From Parasphingorhabdus flavimaris (GTDB lineage Bacteria; Pseudomonadota; Alphaproteobacteria; Sphingomonadales; Sphingomonadaceae), in assembly GCF_013371215.1 (NCBI RefSeq), contig NZ_JABWMH010000002.1:496001-560000 (forward strand): 64,000 bases of DNA, read 5' to 3'. Both the position numbers and the translations under genes were made by a program. Below, one piece after another: positions 56,909-64,000 of the stretch; the first letter of the stretch is position 1; the number at the start of each line of letters is the position of its first letter. The notes under the pieces are model-generated. The model searched no databases. It was not told where the DNA came from and was given only the letters and a program-made list of their open reading frames with translations.

Positions 56909-59008
56909 ATGAGCATGATTCACGCCCGCACCTGTCATATTTGCGAAGCCAATTGCGGCCTGCTGGTCGAGGTCGAGGGGCGCGAAATATTGTCGATCAG
57001 GGGCAATCCCGATCATGTGCTGAGCCGTGGCCATATCTGCCCCAAGGGAACAGCGATTGCCGATCTGCAGGATGACCCCGACCGCTTGCACAAGCCGGTC
57101 AAGAAAGTGGATGGCCAGTGGCAGGAAATCGGCTGGGAACAGGCCTATACGGAAATCGCCGCGAAACTCGTCGCGCTCAAGGGGCAGGGCGCCAAGCCGG
57201 CGATATATGCCGGTAATCCCGGTGCGCATGATTATGCCCTCTCGACCCAGGTCGGCCAGCTGCGCCGCGCGATCGGGCTGAAAAACATCTATTCGGCTTC
57301 AACGCTGGACCAGATTCCGCATCATGTCGTGCAATATCATATGTATGGTCATGTCAGCCTCGCCGCGGTGCCCGATATCGACCGCTGCCAGTATCTGGTG
57401 ATTATCGGCGGCAACCCGATGGCCTCCAACGGCAGCATCTGGACCGTGCCCGACTTCAGGAAAAGGGTGAAGGAAATGCAGGCGCGTGACGGCAGGCTGG
57501 TCGTCGTCGATCCGCGCCGGACCGAAACCGCCAGGATCGCGGACGCGCATCATTTCGTGAAGCCGGGGACCGACACCGCGTTGCTGATCGGCATTTTGAA
57601 AAGCATTTTTGATAGCGGTCTGGTCGACACGTCCCGCGTCGATGCGCTGCTCGATGACAGCTGGAGCGCCATCGAACCAGCGGTTGCGGGCTTTGATATG
57701 GACCAGCTTGCTGCCCATTGCGGTATATCGGCTGCGACCATGCAGGAAATGGCCACGCAACTGGCCGCGGACCAGCCCGCCGCGCTCTATGGCCGGATGG
57801 GTGTGTCGGTCTGCGAATTCGGGACGCTCAACCAGTGGCTGATCCAGATCATCAATATCGCGTCCGGCAATCTCGACCGGGTCGGCGGCACGATGGTTCC
57901 GCAGCCGGCGCTCGACACCATCAATCTGGTCGGCAGGGGGTCGGTGCGCACCGTCGATACCGTGCGCGGGCCGATGCCCTCGATCATGGGCGAGCTGCCG
58001 ACGATCACCTTCGCCGATGAAATGCTGCGCGACGACGAGCAGCGGATCAGGTCGCTGTTCGTGCTGACCGGCAACCCGGTGCTGTCCGCACCGGATGGCG
58101 CCAAGCTCGATCGCGCGCTCGAGCGACTCGACCTGATGGTTTCCTTCGACATGTATGTCACCGCGACCAGCCGCCATGCGGATTATATATTGCCGCCCTG
58201 CGGGCCGCTGGAAAAGGATCACTATCCGTTTTTCTTCGGGCCGCTGGCGATCCGCAACTATGCCAGCTACTCGCCGGCGATCTTCGACATGCCAGACGGC
58301 GAGAAGGCCGACTGGGAGATTGTCGCCGAGCTCAGCCTCGCGATAATGGCGCAGGACGGACAGGATCTCCCCAATATCCGTGTGCCGCGGGATGTCCTCG
58401 ACAATATGCTGCAAAGCTCCCCCGCCGGACTGACGCTGGCCGAAGTGGAGGCGGCGCCAAACGGGATCGATCTCGGGCCGCTGCAGCCGTGCATGGCCGA
58501 ACGGCTGCGCACCGAGAACGGCAAGATCCACTGCGCCCATCCCGATTTCCTCGCCGAACTGCAGCGCTTTGCCGCTTCGCTCGATGACGAGCAGCCTGAT
58601 GTCTTGCGTCTGATTGGGCGTAGGCACGTCCGCCAGAACAACAGCTGGCTGCACAACAGCAAACGCCTGCTCAAGGGGCCGGATCGCTGCACCCTGATGA
58701 TCCATCCCGATGACGCCATGGCTCGCGGCCTAACCGATGGCGGCATGGCGACCGTGACCAGCCGGGTGAACAGCGTCGATATCCCGGTCGAGGTGAGCGA
58801 TGACGTCATGCCCGGCGTGGTGTCGATCCCGCATGGCTTCGGTCACGGACGCAAAGGCGTCGGCCTTTCGGTGGCGCGGGAGAAGCCGGGGGTTTCGATC
58901 AACGACCTGACCGATACAGAGCGCTTTGACCCGCTGTCCGGCAACGCCGTGTTGAACGCGGTGGCGGTTACGGTTGCCAGAGCAGAGGAATTGGTGGCGG
59001 CGGAATAG
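56909..59008 (+). CDS. Molybdopterin-dependent oxidoreductase
   Basis: This 699-residue protein of the DMSO reductase superfamily binds one [4Fe-4S] cluster through C9, C12, C16 and C44 (TCHICEANC, HICPKG) and a bis-MGD cofactor (GNPMASNGSIWTVPDF, DPRRTETARIADAHHFVKPGTD, ASRHADYILPPCGPLEKDHY). There is no Tat signal, so it should be cytoplasmic. No electron-transfer subunit or cofactor maturation gene lies nearby. The substrate is unknown. The start ATG 56909 has a textbook CCAGGAGG at 56894-56901. An inverted repeat follows its stop. Confidence 0.93.
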   Translation: MSMIHARTCHICEANCGLLVEVEGREILSIRGNPDHVLSRGHICPKGTAIADLQDDPDRLHKPVKKVDGQWQEIGWEQAYTEIAAKLVALKGQGAKPAIYAGNPGAHDYALSTQVGQLRRAIGLKNIYSASTLDQIPHHVVQYHMYGHVSLAAVPDIDRCQYLVIIGGNPMASNGSIWTVPDFRKRVKEMQARDGRLVVVDPRRTETARIADAHHFVKPGTDTALLIGILKSIFDSGLVDTSRVDALLDDSWSAIEPAVAGFDMDQLAAHCGISAATMQEMATQLAADQPAALYGRMGVSVCEFGTLNQWLIQIINIASGNLDRVGGTMVPQPALDTINLVGRGSVRTVDTVRGPMPSIMGELPTITFADEMLRDDEQRIRSLFVLTGNPVLSAPDGAKLDRALERLDLMVSFDMYVTATSRHADYILPPCGPLEKDHYPFFFGPLAIRNYASYSPAIFDMPDGEKADWEIVAELSLAIMAQDGQDLPNIRVPRDVLDNMLQSSPAGLTLAEVEAAPNGIDLGPLQPCMAERLRTENGKIHCAHPDFLAELQRFAASLDDEQPDVLRLIGRRHVRQNNSWLHNSKRLLKGPDRCTLMIHPDDAMARGLTDGGMATVTSRVNSVDIPVEVSDDVMPGVVSIPHGFGHGRKGVGLSVAREKPGVSINDLTDTERFDPLSGNAVLNAVAVTVARAEELVAAE

Positions 59009-59026
59009 GGTAAGACATCGCAAAAT

Positions 59027-59102
59027 GTGCTCCGCACTTGATGCGGAGCTCTGGAGGCTGGACGCTGACTGCCGATAGGGCTCCGCATCAAGTGCGGAGC
59101 AC
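59027..59102. repeat. Two-arm inverted repeat element, family A
   Basis: Two 23-base arms (59027-59049 and 59080-59102) are perfect reverse complements. Each arm is also a hairpin by itself (GCTCCGCA-CTTGA-TGCGGAGC). The 30-base core between them is not repeated. It lies in the gap between the molybdopterin oxidoreductase and glyQ. No transposase is present. Confidence 0.9.
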
Positions 59103-59200
59103 GATGGTTCTTGCAAATGAGGCCATTCCTCCCTTGACCCTCGTGCCCTCCTTCGCCAAAGCAGCGCGTAAATATTGCACTCGCGAAGAAAGTCTTCATC

Positions 59201-60073
59201 TTGGCCGATACGAAGCCTCTAAGCTTCCAGCAGATCATCCTGAAACTCCACAATTACTGGAGCGATCGGGGCTGCGTGATCCTGCAACCCTATGACATGG
59301 AAATGGGGGCAGGGACGTTCCATCCCGCGACCACCCTGCGCGCCCTCGGGCCGGATCCGTGGAATGCTGCCTTCGTCCAGGCCTGCCGCCGTCCGACCGA
59401 TGGTCGCTATGGCGAGAATCCGAACCGGCTCCAGCATTATTACCAATATCAGGTAGTGCTCAAACCATCGCCGCCGGACATCCAGCAGCTCTATCTAGAC
59501 AGTCTGGTCGCGATCGGCATCGATCCGATGCTCCACGATATCCGTTTCGTCGAGGATGACTGGGAAAGCCCGACGCTCGGCGCCTGGGGACTCGGCTGGG
59601 AAGTTTGGTGCGACGGCATGGAAGTCACCCAGTTCACCTATTTCCAACAGATGGGCGGCTTCGACTGCAAGCCGGTGGCTGGCGAACTGACCTACGGGCT
59701 GGAACGTCTGGCCATGTACATCCAGAATGTCGACAGCGTTTACGATCTGGATTTCAACGGAAATGGAGTATCTTACGGCGATATCTTTCTGGACAATGAG
59801 AAGCAGATGTCGGCATGGAATTTCGAGGTCGCCGACACGGAAACCCTGTTTGACCTGTTCAACAAGGCGGTCGTCGAATGCGAGAACTGCCTCGAGGCGA
59901 AACTCCCGATTCCCGCCTATGAACAGGCGATCAAGGCCAGCCACGTTTTCAACCTGCTGCAGGCGCGCGGCGTCATCAGCGTCCAGGAACGCGCCAGCTA
60001 CATGGGCCGCGTCCGTGATTTGGCCAAGGGCAGCTGTGAAGCGCATATGATCAAGAACGGATGGGCCGCGTGA
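59201..60073 (+). CDS. glyQ: Glycyl-tRNA synthetase alpha subunit
   Basis: This 290-residue class II synthetase subunit has [63 protein letters not shown] with motif-2 residues, and [14 protein letters not shown] (motif 3). It charges tRNA-Gly as an alpha2beta2 complex. The start is TTG 59201 ([12 protein letters not shown]), since no ATG or GTG lies at the conserved N-terminus; AAGAAAG at 59187-59193 may be its ribosome site. The gap to glyS is 133 bases, most of it a repeat element. Confidence 0.97.
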
Positions 60074-60094
60074 TGGTTGTGGCAACATTATTTT

Positions 60095-60202
60095 CCTCCC
60101 TGTGCGAAGCACGGGGAGGGGGACCATCCGCAGGATGGTGGAGGGGCCCCTCCGTCAGCCGTTCCGGCTGCCACCCCCCCATCGCTTCGCGACAGGGAGG
60201 AA
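60095..60202. repeat. Two-arm repeat element, family B, copy 1 (glyQ-glyS spacer)
   Basis: The left arm 60095-60119 is a hairpin (CCTCCCTGTGC-GAA-GCACGGGGAGG). The core has a CCATCC/GGATGG hairpin, a 14-base palindrome GGAGGGGCCCCTCC (60140-60153) and CAGCC-GTTCC-GGCTG. The right arm (to 60202) is an inverted, diverged version of the left arm. The part 60129-60202 matches 73 of 74 bases with a segment inside glyS (61078-61151). Confidence 0.93.
60194..60200 (+). promoter_or_regulatory. Ribosome binding site of glyS, supplied by the repeat
   Basis: AGGGAGG at the 3' end of the repeat lies 6 bases before ATG 60207 and is the only Shine-Dalgarno candidate for glyS. The terminal arm of the element thus serves as the translation signal of an essential gene. 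Confidence 0.8.
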
Positions 60203-60206
60203 TTAG

Positions 60207-62501
60207 ATGACCGACTTCCTGCTCGAACTGCTTTCCGAAGAAATCCCGGCGCGGATGCAGGCGAAAGCCCGCGCCGACCTGCAGCGGCTGTTCACCGAAC
60301 AGATGACCGCAGCGGGCCTGAAAGCCGGCGCGATCACCGTCTGGTCGACGCCACGGCGTCTTGCTCTCATCGCCAGGGGCCTGCCCGCACAGACCGAAGC
60401 GGTCAGCGAGGAAGCCAAGGGACCACCCGAAGCCGCGCCGGATCAGGCGGTCGAGGGTTTCTGCCGCAAGAATGAGGTCACCCGCGACCAGCTCGAAGTG
60501 CGTGACGTCAAGGGACGCCCGACCTATTTTGCCGTGATCAACAAGCCGGGCCGCGATACGCAGGATGTGCTGGCGGAAGCCATTCCGGCGATCATCAGGG
60601 CCTTCCCGTGGCCGAAATCGATGCGCTGGGGTGACGCCAGTGCGTCGACCGAAAGCCTGCGCTGGGTGCGGCCGCTGAGCGGCATCGTCGCGATCTTCGG
60701 CGACGATCTGGTGCCATGCGAAATTGACGGCATGACGTCAGCCTATGATACGGTCGGGCATCGCTTTCACCATGATGGCATGATCACCATCGGCAATGCC
60801 GATGACTATGTTGAAAAACTGCGCGCCTGTCATGTGATCGTCGATCATGAAGAGCGTCAGAATATCATCCGCGATGGGGCCGCGAAAGCCGCATCCGACG
60901 CCGGACTGGAGCTGGTCGAAGACGAAGGCCTGGTGATCGAGAATGCCGGCCTGACCGAATGGCCGGTGCCGTTGCTGGGCGCGTTCGATCCCGCATTTCT
61001 CGACGTACCGGAAGAGGTGATCCAGCTGACCGCCCGGGTGAACCAGAAATATTTTGTGTGCAAATATCCTCCCAATGCGCAGGATGGTGGAGGGGCCCCT
61101 CCGTCAGCCGTTCCGGCTGCCACCTCCCCATCGCTTCGCGACAGGGAGGAAAAATTGGCTCCCTATTTCGTCTGCACGGCGAATATCGACGCCAGCGATG
61201 GCGGCAAGGCAATTGTTGCGGGGAACGAAAAAGTCCTCGCTGCGCGACTCTCCGACGCAAAATTCTTCTGGGAACTTGACCAGAAGACGGCATTGGAGGA
61301 TCATGCAAAGAAATTGAGCAACATCGTGTTCCACGAAAAATTGGGAACGGTTGCCGACAAGGTAGAGCGTGTGGCCAAGCTGGCTGAGTGGTTGGCGTCT
61401 TTAGAAGGGACTGGGTTACTCCGTGCCAACCCGGAACAGACCAAGCAGGCCGCACGTCTCTGCAAAGCCGATCTCGTCACCGAAATGGTCGGCGAGTTCC
61501 CCGAGCTGCAAGGCTTGATGGGCGGCTATTATGCAGAGAAAGAAGAGCTTCCGGTGGAAGTCTCACAAGCGATCAGAGATCATTACAAGCCGGTCGGGCA
61601 GGGCGATGATGTGCCGACTGACCCGGTGACGGTGTGGGTGAGCCTGGCGGATAAGCTGGATACGCTGGCTTGCTTTTTTGCGATTGATGAGAAACCCACC
61701 GGTTCGAAAGATCCGTTCGCGCTCCGTCGGGCGGGAATCGCTAATCTGAGCCTGTGGCACGATAATAAATTGCGAGGGTCACATTTAAAAGTGCTTCGCC
61801 AGGCTATTGCAATCGCGGCCGAACAGATGCCTACGTTAAAAGAGAGGCTGGAAAATTTATCCAAAGCGGCGGGCGTATCAGAGAATTTGTTGAAGAGAGC
61901 TATTGATCGCGAAGCTGAGGAACTTTGGGGTTTTCTCGTTGACCGGCTGAAAGTCCAGCAACGCGAAGCGGGCGTCCGTCACGACCTGATTGACGCGGTG
62001 TTCGCGCTGGGTGGTGAAGACGATCTGGTGCGTTTGCTCGCCCGGGTTAAGGCTTTGCAGGCCTTTGTCGAAACCACGGACGGGGAAAATCTGCTCGCCG
62101 GTTACAAGCGGGCTTCGAATATATTGAAGAAAGAGGGCGCTGGTGCCGTTCGTGTCGAGCGTAGTCGAGACACGGATGAAGGTAGGCATGGTCTCTCGAC
62201 TTCGCTCGAGACGAACGGGGAAGGGCTCAAACCCCTTTCCTACACGCCCGAAAAGGCCGAAAAGACCCTCATAGACGCGCTCGACGCGGCGCAGCCGCAG
62301 GTCACTGCCGCGATCGAGGCCGAGCAGTTCGAGCAGGCGATGACCGCGCTGGCGGCCCTGCGCGGCCCGATTGACCAGTTTTTCGAGGATGTGACGGTGA
62401 ACGACGACGACGGAGCGAAGCGCGAAGCCCGGCTTGCCCTGCTCGCGCGTTTTCGCAACGCCGTCCACCAAGTTGCTGATTTTTCGAAGATCGAGGGCTA
62501 G
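60207..62501 (+). CDS. glyS: Glycyl-tRNA synthetase beta subunit, with two repeat-derived inserts
   Basis: This 764-residue beta subunit binds and positions tRNA-Gly. It is about 60-70 residues longer than the roughly 690-700 usual for the family. The N-terminus TDFLLELLSEEIPARMQAKA, SLRWVRPLSGIVAIF, VNQKYFVC, TANIDASDGGKAIVAGNEKVLAARLSDA and KADLVTEMVGEFPELQG are all family-typical. The extra length is explained by two in-frame inserts that coincide with DNA repeats. Residues about 287-317 (AQDGGGAPPSAVPAATSPSL) come from family B copy 2, and residues about 647-671 (RVERSRDTDEGRHGLSTS) come from family C. The frame is open throughout, so it is probably functional. Confidence 0.95.
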   Translation: MTDFLLELLSEEIPARMQAKARADLQRLFTEQMTAAGLKAGAITVWSTPRRLALIARGLPAQTEAVSEEAKGPPEAAPDQAVEGFCRKNEVTRDQLEVRDVKGRPTYFAVINKPGRDTQDVLAEAIPAIIRAFPWPKSMRWGDASASTESLRWVRPLSGIVAIFGDDLVPCEIDGMTSAYDTVGHRFHHDGMITIGNADDYVEKLRACHVIVDHEERQNIIRDGAAKAASDAGLELVEDEGLVIENAGLTEWPVPLLGAFDPAFLDVPEEVIQLTARVNQKYFVCKYPPNAQDGGGAPPSAVPAATSPSLRDREEKLAPYFVCTANIDASDGGKAIVAGNEKVLAARLSDAKFFWELDQKTALEDHAKKLSNIVFHEKLGTVADKVERVAKLAEWLASLEGTGLLRANPEQTKQAARLCKADLVTEMVGEFPELQGLMGGYYAEKEELPVEVSQAIRDHYKPVGQGDDVPTDPVTVWVSLADKLDTLACFFAIDEKPTGSKDPFALRRAGIANLSLWHDNKLRGSHLKVLRQAIAIAAEQMPTLKERLENLSKAAGVSENLLKRAIDREAEELWGFLVDRLKVQQREAGVRHDLIDAVFALGGEDDLVRLLARVKALQAFVETTDGENLLAGYKRASNILKKEGAGAVRVERSRDTDEGRHGLSTSLETNGEGLKPLSYTPEKAEKTLIDALDAAQPQVTAAIEAEQFEQAMTALAALRGPIDQFFEDVTVNDDDGAKREARLALLARFRNAVHQVADFSKIEG
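61068..61151. repeat. Two-arm repeat element, family B, copy 2 (inside glyS)
   Basis: Bases 61078-61151 match copy 1 (60129-60202) at 73 of 74 positions; the single difference is T against C in the right arm. The left arm is mostly deleted: CCTCCC is followed directly by AATG and the core. It lies in frame in glyS and is read as part of the protein. It also places AGGGAGG before an in-frame TTG at 61155. Confidence 0.93.
62146..62218. repeat. Two-arm inverted repeat element, family C (inside glyS)
   Basis: Arms 62146-62173 and 62191-62218 are 28 bases each and reverse complements at 25 of 28 positions. Each arm contains an inner TCTCGA/TCGAGA-type hairpin. The core is 17 bases. The element is read in frame within glyS and coincides with a stretch (RVERSRDTDEGRHG) not expected in GlyS. 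Confidence 0.9.
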
Positions 62502-62579
62502 AAGAGATTTGATTCATAACAGTGTAAAGTGTGTAAAGTTCGACGGCGGTTTTTTCGGTTATGAGGACTGACCGAAAAG

Positions 62580-62698
62580 CCCCTCCTCTTCAGAGGAGGG
62601 GTCGGGGTGGTGTCTATCCCCACTCACAAAACTCGGAGACTGGCATCGAGCCAGCCTCCTCATAAACCACCCCTTGCCCCTCCTTTGAAAAGGAGGGG
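62580..62698. repeat. Two-arm inverted repeat element, family D (glyS-ppdK gap)
   Basis: The left arm is a 9-bp hairpin CCCCTCCTC-TTCA-GAGGAGGGG (62580-62601). The right arm is CCCCTCCTT-TGAA-AAGGAGGGG (62677-62698), an inverted near-copy. GGGGTGGT (62604-62611) pairs with ACCACCCC (62666-62673), and a GGAG-x-CTGGC hairpin fills the centre. It takes up most of the 220-base gap before ppdK. Confidence 0.9.
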
Positions 62699-62721
62699 TT
62701 GGACAGTGATGAGGCAGATGA

Positions 62722-64000
62722 ATGACCCAATATGTATATCGTTTCGGTGGCGGCATGGACGCGGATGGTGCGCCATCTGGCAAGACAGAAGCCCGCAACC
62801 TGCTCGGCGGCAAAGGGGCCAATCTCGCCGAAATGGCCAATATCGGCCTGCCGGTTCCTCCCGGGTTCACGATTTCCACCGAAATGTGCACCGAATATAT
62901 GAACAATGACGGCGCCTATCCCGACAGTCTGAACGCCGAAGTCGCGCAGGGCGTGGCCCATATCCAATCGGTCACCGGCAAGACATTCGGCGATGCGGCC
63001 GATCCGCTGCTGGTCTCGGTGCGCTCCGGCGCCCGCGCCTCGATGCCCGGGATGATGGACACGGTGCTCAATCTCGGTCTCAACGACGACACCGTCGAGG
63101 GCCTTGCCAAAACCTCCGGCGACGAACGTTTCGCCTGGGACAGCTATCGCCGGTTCATCCAGATGTATAGCGATGTGGTACTCCAGCTCGACCATGATTC
63201 CTTCGAAGAGGCCTTGGAAATTATCAAGGAAGACAACGGATTCTTCACCGATACCGAGATGGAGTCTGAACATTGGAAGGCCTTGGTCAGCGAATATAAG
63301 GCGCTGGTCGAGAAGCAATGGGGCAAGCCTTTCCCGCAGGACGTCAATGACCAGCTCTGGGGCGCGGTCAGCGCCGTGTTCGGCAGCTGGCAGGCAGACC
63401 GGGCCAAGGTCTACCGCCGGCTCAACGATATTCCCGCCGAATGGGGCACGGCCGTCAACGTCCAGGCGATGGTCTTCGGCAATATGGGTGAAACCAGCGC
63501 CACCGGCGTCGCCTTCACCCGCAATCCCTCGACCGGGGACAGCGCCTATTATGGCGAATGGCTGATCAACGCGCAGGGCGAGGATGTTGTGGCCGGCATC
63601 CGCACCCCGCAATATCTTTCGAAAGCCGCCCGCGAAGAGGCCAATGCCAAGCCGCTGTCGATGGAAGAGGCGATGCCGGAGACCTACAAGGAGCTGACCG
63701 ACGTGTTCGATCTGCTCGAACGCCATTATCGCGACATGCAGGATATCGAATTTACCGTCGAACGCGGCAAATTGTGGATGCTGCAGACCCGCTCGGGCAA
63801 GCGTACCGCCAAGGCGGCACTGAAAATTGCGGTCGATATGGCCCATGACGGCCTCATCACCGAGGAAGAAGCGGTGTTGCGCGTCGATCCGATGGCGCTC
63901 GACCAGCTGCTCCACCCGACGCTCGATCCGGAAGCGAAACGCGACGTGCTGACCACCGGCCTGCCGGCTTCTCCCGGCGCAGCCAGCGGTCTGATCGTGT
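62722..64000 (+). CDS. ppdK: Pyruvate, phosphate dikinase, N-terminal part
   Basis: The first 426 residues of a protein usually near 880-900; the window ends inside it. It converts pyruvate to PEP, or the reverse, with ATP and phosphate. The nucleotide-binding domain shows YRFGGGMDADG, LLGGKGANLAEMANIGLPVPPGFTI, VSVRSGARASMPGMMDTVLNLG and GVAFTRNPSTGDSAYYGEWL. DIEFTVERGKLWMLQTRSGKRT leads to the phospho-His domain, which starts near the edge (PASPGAASGLIV). ATG 62722 has GAGG at 62711-62714. With pckA at 30 kb it is a second PEP-forming enzyme in the window. Confidence 0.96.
   Translation, partial: MTQYVYRFGGGMDADGAPSGKTEARNLLGGKGANLAEMANIGLPVPPGFTISTEMCTEYMNNDGAYPDSLNAEVAQGVAHIQSVTGKTFGDAADPLLVSVRSGARASMPGMMDTVLNLGLNDDTVEGLAKTSGDERFAWDSYRRFIQMYSDVVLQLDHDSFEEALEIIKEDNGFFTDTEMESEHWKALVSEYKALVEKQWGKPFPQDVNDQLWGAVSAVFGSWQADRAKVYRRLNDIPAEWGTAVNVQAMVFGNMGETSATGVAFTRNPSTGDSAYYGEWLINAQGEDVVAGIRTPQYLSKAAREEANAKPLSMEEAMPETYKELTDVFDLLERHYRDMQDIEFTVERGKLWMLQTRSGKRTAKAALKIAVDMAHDGLITEEEAVLRVDPMALDQLLHPTLDPEAKRDVLTTGLPASPGAASGLIV

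Follow-up and report, generated by a model that had tools for sequence, protein, structure and literature searches.

Palindromic Repeats Inserted in Frame in glyS of Parasphingorhabdus flavimaris and Recurrent Filling of GlyS Loops by Unrelated Repeat Families

Palindromic Repeats at the glyQ-glyS Locus

The window analyzed here is a 64,000-nucleotide stretch of the Parasphingorhabdus flavimaris genome (contig NZ_JABWMH010000002.1, positions 496,001 to 560,000, forward strand), in which the genes for both subunits of glycyl-tRNA synthetase (GlyRS) are present on the + strand. The alpha subunit gene glyQ (59201-60073; assigned with Pfam) lies upstream of the beta subunit gene glyS (60207-62501; 764 residues; Pfam tRNA_synt_2f and DALR_1). 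Two unrelated palindromic repeats, designated E1 and E2, are inserted in frame in glyS. The glyQ-glyS spacer carries a full E1 element (60092-60206, + strand), an inverted pair of two ~56-nt double-hairpin units detected by repeat search and folding. A shortened E1 constitutes insert B of glyS (61062-61154, + strand; homologous part 61075-61151), recognized by alignment. E2 constitutes insert D near the C terminus (62143-62226, + strand), recognized by folding and genome search and read as VRVERSRDT...LSTSLETNG. An initial annotation, made from the sequence alone, had described the two E1 copies, the first of them correctly as intergenic; insert D was absent from it.

Insert B is read as 31 residues, KYPPNAQDGGGAPPSAVPAATSPSLRDREEK; in relatives that lack it, the place is taken by a turn of six residues, such as RDKSGK. 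The initial annotation was right about the reading in frame, but not about the size of the gain, which is 25 residues net instead of about 28. The kept frame suggests that the insert is translated as part of GlyS, and the predicted tryptic peptide is YPPNAQDGGGAPPSAVPAATSPSLR. The spacer and glyS copies are 949 bp apart. Their ungapped alignment (60126-60202 against 61075-61151) shows 97% identity over 77 nt, with two mismatches, one at position 3 and one in a CCCCCC/CCTCCC run; the 73 matches of 74 first reported for 60129-60202 and 61078-61151 are exact. As had been proposed, the inner copy is shorter on its left side, with the frame kept: insert B with its two flanking codons is 99 nt here and 123 nt in a congeneric genome (G014), a difference of 24 nt.

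The spacer E1 folds at -75.7 kcal/mol (z -7.1 against dinucleotide shuffles) into an outer stem with inner hairpins, and the glyS copy folds with z -4.9. Insert D with its flanks (62137-62230) shows z -5.6. A search of the whole genome with the unit, suggested in the initial annotation, gave 32 matches to E1 at E ≤ 1e-3, with both strands counted; E2 also has 32 matches in this genome. As the E1 copies fold better than dinucleotide shuffles and have 32 genome matches, they are beyond chance. The Rfam search of 59000-64000 gave three sub-threshold matches alone, which were judged to be chance matches.

A third palindromic repeat family, of the SAPHLM type, is found upstream of glyQ (59027-59102, + strand; genome search, G000:C2:555027-555102, where G000 is the window's own genome). 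Two CCCCTCC...GGAGGGG palindromes are found 3' of glyS (62580-62601 and 62677-62698). Thus, repeats both flank and fill the glyQS operon.

Architecture and Distribution of E1

Full E1 elements in the own genome are 106-131 nt long, and each of the two inverted units has two hairpins. Within the genus, 15 of 32 genomes have E1 at E ≤ 1e-8. Across the family, it was detected at E ≤ 1e-12 in at least 36 of 199 genomes, representing at least 25 of 91 genera; these are lower bounds, with up to four candidates scored per genome.

The second hairpin is bounded by ACC/GGT-type arms in 36 of 69 E1 units and by TGGC/GAC arms in the other 33, and no unit is mixed. The stem sequence of this hairpin is variable in the 69 units, with complementarity kept: the arms form 4.33 outer pairs on average, versus 1.97 (maximum 2.49) when arms were re-dealt among units 1000 times. 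Pairing in the first hairpin is 4.51, versus 3.09 after re-dealing (maximum 3.46 of 500). In 63 E1 units, 87% of the six frames are open, versus 74% (maximum 79%) in 200 shuffles, and the coding E1 copies use five of the six phases. An E1 array with six matches on one strand within 0.9 kb was also observed in the own genome (C1:814375-815256; L010, L013, L017, L021, L022, and L026, L-numbers being named loci).

E1 and E2 in Other Genes

In the own genome, 43 open frames span repeats (some places are listed twice, and glyS is included). Twenty were scanned with Pfam; those without a Pfam family are probably spurious and were not counted. A SIR2-containing frame (L080) was dropped, as its repeat is 5' of the domain and may precede the true start.

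E1 is in frame in the genes for IleRS (ileS, two units), TruB (truB, two units), and a DnaE-family polymerase (three elements), presumably DnaE2 (dnaE2). E2 is in frame twice in LigA (ligA) and, as one half unit, in CarA (carA). Alignments to solved chains skip query residues 494-552 of IleRS, 187-232 of TruB, 475-532 of the DnaE-family polymerase, 213-237 and 631-679 of LigA, and 207-232 of CarA. The ligA alignments to eleven genomes are interrupted at the first insert (query 211/212 to 238/239), and eight of these also at the second (639-641 to 678-682), as expected if those genomes do not have the inserts. In truB of three other genomes of the genus (G007, G009, and G010), an HPELVS-type palindrome is present at about the place of E1. 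The three full E1 elements in the dnaE-family gene are similar and are read in the same phases (L005, L007, and L008; C3:90285-92636), so that this gene, too, holds more than one copy of a similar repeat.

Structure Model of GlyS

An AlphaFold2 model of the window GlyS, built from 58 aligned rows, showed mean predicted local distance difference test (pLDDT) of 90 and predicted template modeling score (pTM) of 0.84. The closest solved chains are GlyRS beta subunits, including that of Escherichia coli (7yse_C; E 6e-43, template modeling (TM) score 0.81 by target), and GlyS is otherwise a normal beta subunit. Stretches of at least three residues with pLDDT below 50 are only 299-314 and 649-670, both inside the inserts. 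In the model, insert B lies between strands 283-286 and 317-325, and insert D between helices 624-642 and 683-704. Insert B appears to hang from a turn and leaves the strands in place, and both inserts look disordered on a confidently modeled core.

By alignment, site B corresponds to about residues 290-293 of the E. coli subunit. Its probable location is the B3 domain, which touches the alpha subunit and has a part in binding ATP (PMC8464048).

Filling of GlyS Loops in Different Species

GlyS sequences were collected from 30 genomes of the genus (G-numbers) and 80 named loci, 110 in total with two duplicates among them. The tree contained 86 rows. The 24 sequences left out were the duplicates L150 and L181, the partial sequences L186, L195, and L198, G013 with a run of N, and 18 distant outgroup rows. 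GlyS has four variable places: site A after GHRFH, site B after VNQKYF(V/I)C, site D after NILKKE, and region C. In scoring the sites, G010 was set to empty by hand and L201 was counted as empty, L206 and L219 were misread at site A, and rows without a match at site D, including G002, were left unscored.

Site B is filled by a repeat of any family in 15 of the 86 rows. An in-frame palindromic insert in an essential gene, comparable to the Rickettsia palindromic elements (RPEs) as first proposed, is borne out, with most homologues empty. Sites D and A are filled in 29 of 68 and 8 of 75 rows, respectively. On the quick likelihood tree, in which 27 of 83 inner branches have support of at least 95 in the Shimodaira-Hasegawa-like approximate likelihood ratio test (SH-aLRT), the fewest state changes, losses included, are 10 for B, 15 for D, and 5 for A.

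At site B, four palindrome families were observed. E1 is present in G000 and in seven further genomes of the genus (G005, G008, G011, G014, G016, G019, and G022), which excludes a read-assembly artefact; G005 is a one-contig genome, where insert B is reduced to 12 residues. An E1-related form is present in Sphingorhabdus soli (L184). A different palindrome, CTCCCGC..GCGGGAG, fills the site in G003, G009, G017, and L163, a SASSAEH-type palindrome in G002, and a CCCGCGCAGGCGGG-type palindrome in L209. At site D, about seven families are distinguished by their peptides: E2, HPELVS...QVQDDE, PAKAG-type, PAxAGAH, SAPHLM/SASSAEH, CTCCC-type, and, in L209, E1. The PAKAG and PAxAGAH families may be related. 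For four further families, the numbers of matches elsewhere per genome were 6, 9, and 5; 28, 39, and 11; 34, 71, and 51; and 1, 10, and 27.

Folding was used to check which inserts are palindromes. All 14 site B inserts scored (13 distinct; G005, too short, and G008, with a run of N, were left out) fold with z below -3, as do 27 of 43 at site D and 7 of 11 at site A, two of the 11 being misreads. Among the 16 site D inserts above z -3, 14 have an acidic EEDP/DEDP loop and are ordinary sequence.

Site B has received four families and site D about seven, and two families were found at about the same place of truB. This could be expected if palindromes were directed to such sites by an enzyme or a DNA feature, instead of being spared there by selection. 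Such targeted insertion is unlikely. By eye, the families have no end sequence in common. The ordinary non-hairpin inserts at site D indicate a generally permissive loop, and in the model the sites fall on turns and linkers.

Relationship between the Spacer and glyS Copies

The initial annotation explained the near identity of the two E1 copies by recent copying of the spacer element into glyS. The 97% identity at a distance of 949 bp is consistent with it, but the comparison with other genomes makes recent copying very unlikely. G022, the sister of the window species in the tree (SH-aLRT 97), has a spacer copy and the same shortened B insert, with one difference in 99 nt. Insert B is also present in a full, nested, or reduced form in six further genomes (G005, G008, G011, G014, G016, and G019), and the spacer element is in the other orientation in five of these six, the G011 spacer being unclassified. 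Recent copying would be revived only if G022 acquired glyQS by transfer from the window's lineage.

The hairpin types point to exchange instead. Besides G000 and G022, eight genomes have classifiable E1 spacers (G005, G006, G008, G010, G014, G016, G019, and G020). Their orientation is opposite to that of G000 and G022 in seven and the same in G020. The end hairpin of all eight is (A/G)TTGCTGC(G/A)CAAC. The right spacer hairpin ATCGCTTCGCGAC, which is the site B form, is found in the spacers of G000 and G022 alone; the site B copies of G000 and G022 have the GGATGG hairpin, which also occurs in the G020 and G022 spacers. This distribution suggests exchange between two copies before the split of G000 and G022. 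The near identity is probably best explained by gene conversion between two older copies. The opposite orientations of the spacer E1 among related species look as if palindromes invert in place or are often replaced.

With its two flanking codons, insert B is 123 nt in G014, 99 in G000 and G022, 42 in G005, 189 in G011, where extra hairpins are nested, 138 in G016, and 126 in G019. The differences from 123 nt (-24, -81, +66, +15, and +3) are all multiples of three. In E1-free genomes such as G003, G017, G018, and G024-G029, glyQ and glyS practically abut, and another palindrome was found in the spacer by eye in, for example, G001, G004, G007, G009, and G030.

It is conceivable that the inserts are kept for a function, with the mRNA or spacer hairpin tuning translation or the disordered loop tuning the enzyme. 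Filled loops recur in many species, the spacer and the insert fold strongly, and the glyQ-glyS spacer is largely a palindrome in some genomes, with the two genes practically abutting in others such as G003, G017, and G024-G029. A function nevertheless seems unlikely, since close relatives have no insert at site B at all, the E1 insert varies in size, with 12 residues in G005 and more in G011 and G016, and one site accepts unrelated peptides of different families.

Hypervariable Region C of GlyS

Region C is a hypervariable segment at GlyS residues 509-578 (window 61731-61940), 27-129 residues long in 104 rows. It lies in the HD domain, as placed from E. coli residues 341-540 (PMC8464048). There are 32 same-genus pairs whose first 180 residues are at least 94% identical, and 12 of them are also at least 85% identical in the next 45 residues. 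Region C of these 12 pairs is only 14-32% identical. For examples, identities before, in, and after the segment are 94, 23, and 100% between Sphingobium L199 and L203, and 96, 28, and 96% between Bradyrhizobium L222 and L223. The segment is not always variable, being 96% identical between L222 and L224. Some alleles are common to separate lineages (G009 and G031, 68%; G000 and G020, 87%).

No Pfam match at cut-off was obtained for nine segments and no PDB match for one segment, and no paper on this variability was found in literature searches. The pattern of region C resembles that of cassette exchange or of antagonistic diversification, here within an essential enzyme. It is perhaps more surprising than the palindromic inserts.

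Origin and Maintenance of the Inserts

E1 is likely to be a selfish, stop-poor palindrome that is tolerated in protein loops. It is a dispersed palindromic repeat that would be non-coding, of the kind of repetitive extragenic palindromic sequences (REPs) or miniature inverted-repeat transposable elements (MITEs), and would enter genes as DNA. In coding sequences it would survive mostly where the frame is open and the extra residues form a disordered loop. Its tolerance may be helped by a GC-rich sequence with few stop codons in nearly every frame, and by loss or gain of blocks in the hairpins, among which in-frame variants would be kept. In GlyS, the loops that accept palindromes are the turn of a beta hairpin (site B), another turn (site A), and, within the C-terminal domain, a linker (site D), and unrelated palindrome families fill these loops in other species. 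The insert itself is probably neutral.

Several points weigh against this reading or soften its evidence. The re-dealing of arms treats related E1 copies as independent, and open frames are common in GC-rich DNA anyway. The low pLDDT of the inserts is partly expected, as few aligned rows cover them. The weak tree and recombination of glyS make the state-change counts rough. The argument from multiples of three is small and partly circular, as the lengths were read from intact frames. The site A inserts of G006 (z -1.8) and G019 (z -0.6) fold poorly, as do two peptide-labelled site D repeats (L188, z -2.4; L197, z -0.8), and PAxAGAH has a single match in G024 and is not repeated there. The mover of E1 is another point. 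Y1 transposases of the type of REP-associated tyrosine transposases (RAYTs) are present in 13 of 32 genomes, nine of the 15 with E1 and four of the 17 without it (Fisher p 0.07). The E1 core was not found near any of the 20 Y1 loci fetched (flanks of up to 1.5 kb), and E1 is present in genomes without a Y1 match, such as the one-contig G005; mobilization of E1 by RAYT is thus unsupported.

A further point is from G002, also a one-contig genome, where site D holds a CTCCC-type palindrome that disrupts the frame of glyS. The open frame (L091) ends inside the palindrome after 674 residues, and the C-terminal part of GlyS is in another frame. The frame is therefore not always kept, and this case lowered our confidence in the selfish origin slightly, from high to fairly high. 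The subunit may be truncated but working, the frameshift may be programmed, or the GC-rich hairpin DNA may have been sequenced wrongly. When the E. coli beta subunit lacks its C-terminal 114 residues, the tetramer is still formed and active, although with reduced charging (PMC8464048). Other GlyS sequences without the usual C terminus (G014, equal to L181; G020; L189; and L198) stop at most two bases from the end of the examined sequence.

The out-of-frame palindrome of G002 would be harmless if inserts were removed from RNA or protein in the manner of introns or inteins, and strong hairpins in an essential gene are compatible with it. Such removal is extremely improbable. The frame is kept at site B in all 15 filled rows of the tree, which would be needless, and known inteins are far larger than the 31 residues of insert B.

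With tolerance of a selfish palindrome as the preferred explanation, a wider picture may be drawn, although only tentatively and with little expectation that all of it holds. Standing acceptor loops (sites A, B, and D of GlyS, and those of TruB, LigA, IleS, and the DnaE-type polymerase) might be filled, lost, and refilled by unrelated palindrome families through the evolution of Sphingomonadales, with some fills co-opted as expression brakes or evolvable disordered loops.

In-frame palindromic insertion, seen so far as isolated cases, becomes a traceable process here, in one essential gene with three loops, in many species, and by several unrelated families. Empty, full, nested, shrunken, and once frame-breaking states are available for comparison. 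The entry of palindromes into proteins, and their possible later use, are directly testable in free-living bacteria. For annotation, lengthened loops of core enzymes in this order may be repeat DNA.

Comparison with Known Systems

The initial annotation knew of no named counterpart in sphingomonads. This does not hold, as intragenic REPs are already in print (PMC3733652). Di Nocera et al. (2013, PMC3733652) reported REPs with a CGTC tag from all orders of alphaproteobacteria, among them the sphingomonads S. wittichii, S. chlorophenolicum, and N. aromaticivorans. Intragenic REPs of E. litoralis and S. alaskensis are in genes for tRNA synthetases and in truB, and the genes for DnaE2 and DNA ligase are further acceptors (PMC3733652). 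CGTC REPs have no dedicated transposase (PMC3733652). As far as that paper describes, insertion at about the same site is limited to recB of two Xanthomonas, other insertions being at different sites. CGTC and GTAG REPs and the repeats of this genome have sphingomonad hosts in common, and the acceptor genes found here largely repeat the published list (genes for tRNA synthetases, TruB, DnaE2, and DNA ligase; PMC3733652).

E1 nevertheless differs from these REPs. A CGTC REP is defined by its tag, which is CGTC (or TGTC/CCTC), a single stem of 8-9 bp that begins with A-T pairs, a 4-5-nt loop, and a CCA-like tail (PMC3733652). E1 is without a CGTC or GTAG end tag, a single short stem, and a CCA-like tail. 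Assignment of E1 to CGTC REPs was rejected, as the 69 units have two hairpins and constant GGGGAGG arms. Assignment to GTAG REPs or REPtrons was also rejected, as the unit has no GTAG end and no E1 was found at the flanks of the 20 Y1 loci. Some site D inserts, such as PAKAGAQ...GLRRND, are similar to CGTC dimers by eye.

MITEs with translational fusions resemble E1 in being short palindromic elements with intragenic copies in frame (review PMC10969869). In E1, itself an inverted pair, terminal inverted repeats of a known insertion sequence and target-site duplication are not established; the flanks of filled and empty B sites were compared by eye, and no parent element was sought.

RPEs are close to E1 in phenomenon. 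Like them, E1 is palindromic, is inserted in frame in unrelated alphaproteobacterial genes, and has truB as an acceptor; R. conorii truB carries RPE-1 (PMC3733652). As in RPEs, E1 is a multi-copy palindrome in frame in a conserved gene and absent from orthologues. RPE-4 and RPE-6 of Rickettsia are CGTC REPs (PMC3733652). RPEs are ~150 bp long (review PMC10969869), and here several unrelated families occupy one site.

Neither a description of E1 nor one of unrelated families refilling the same loops of GlyS was found in literature searches or in the sections of PMC3733652 covered. The recurrent acceptor loops are a stronger pattern than could be seen in the window alone. The palindromic insert in GlyS is clearly a new case of a known route by which proteins become longer, one that has been little studied.

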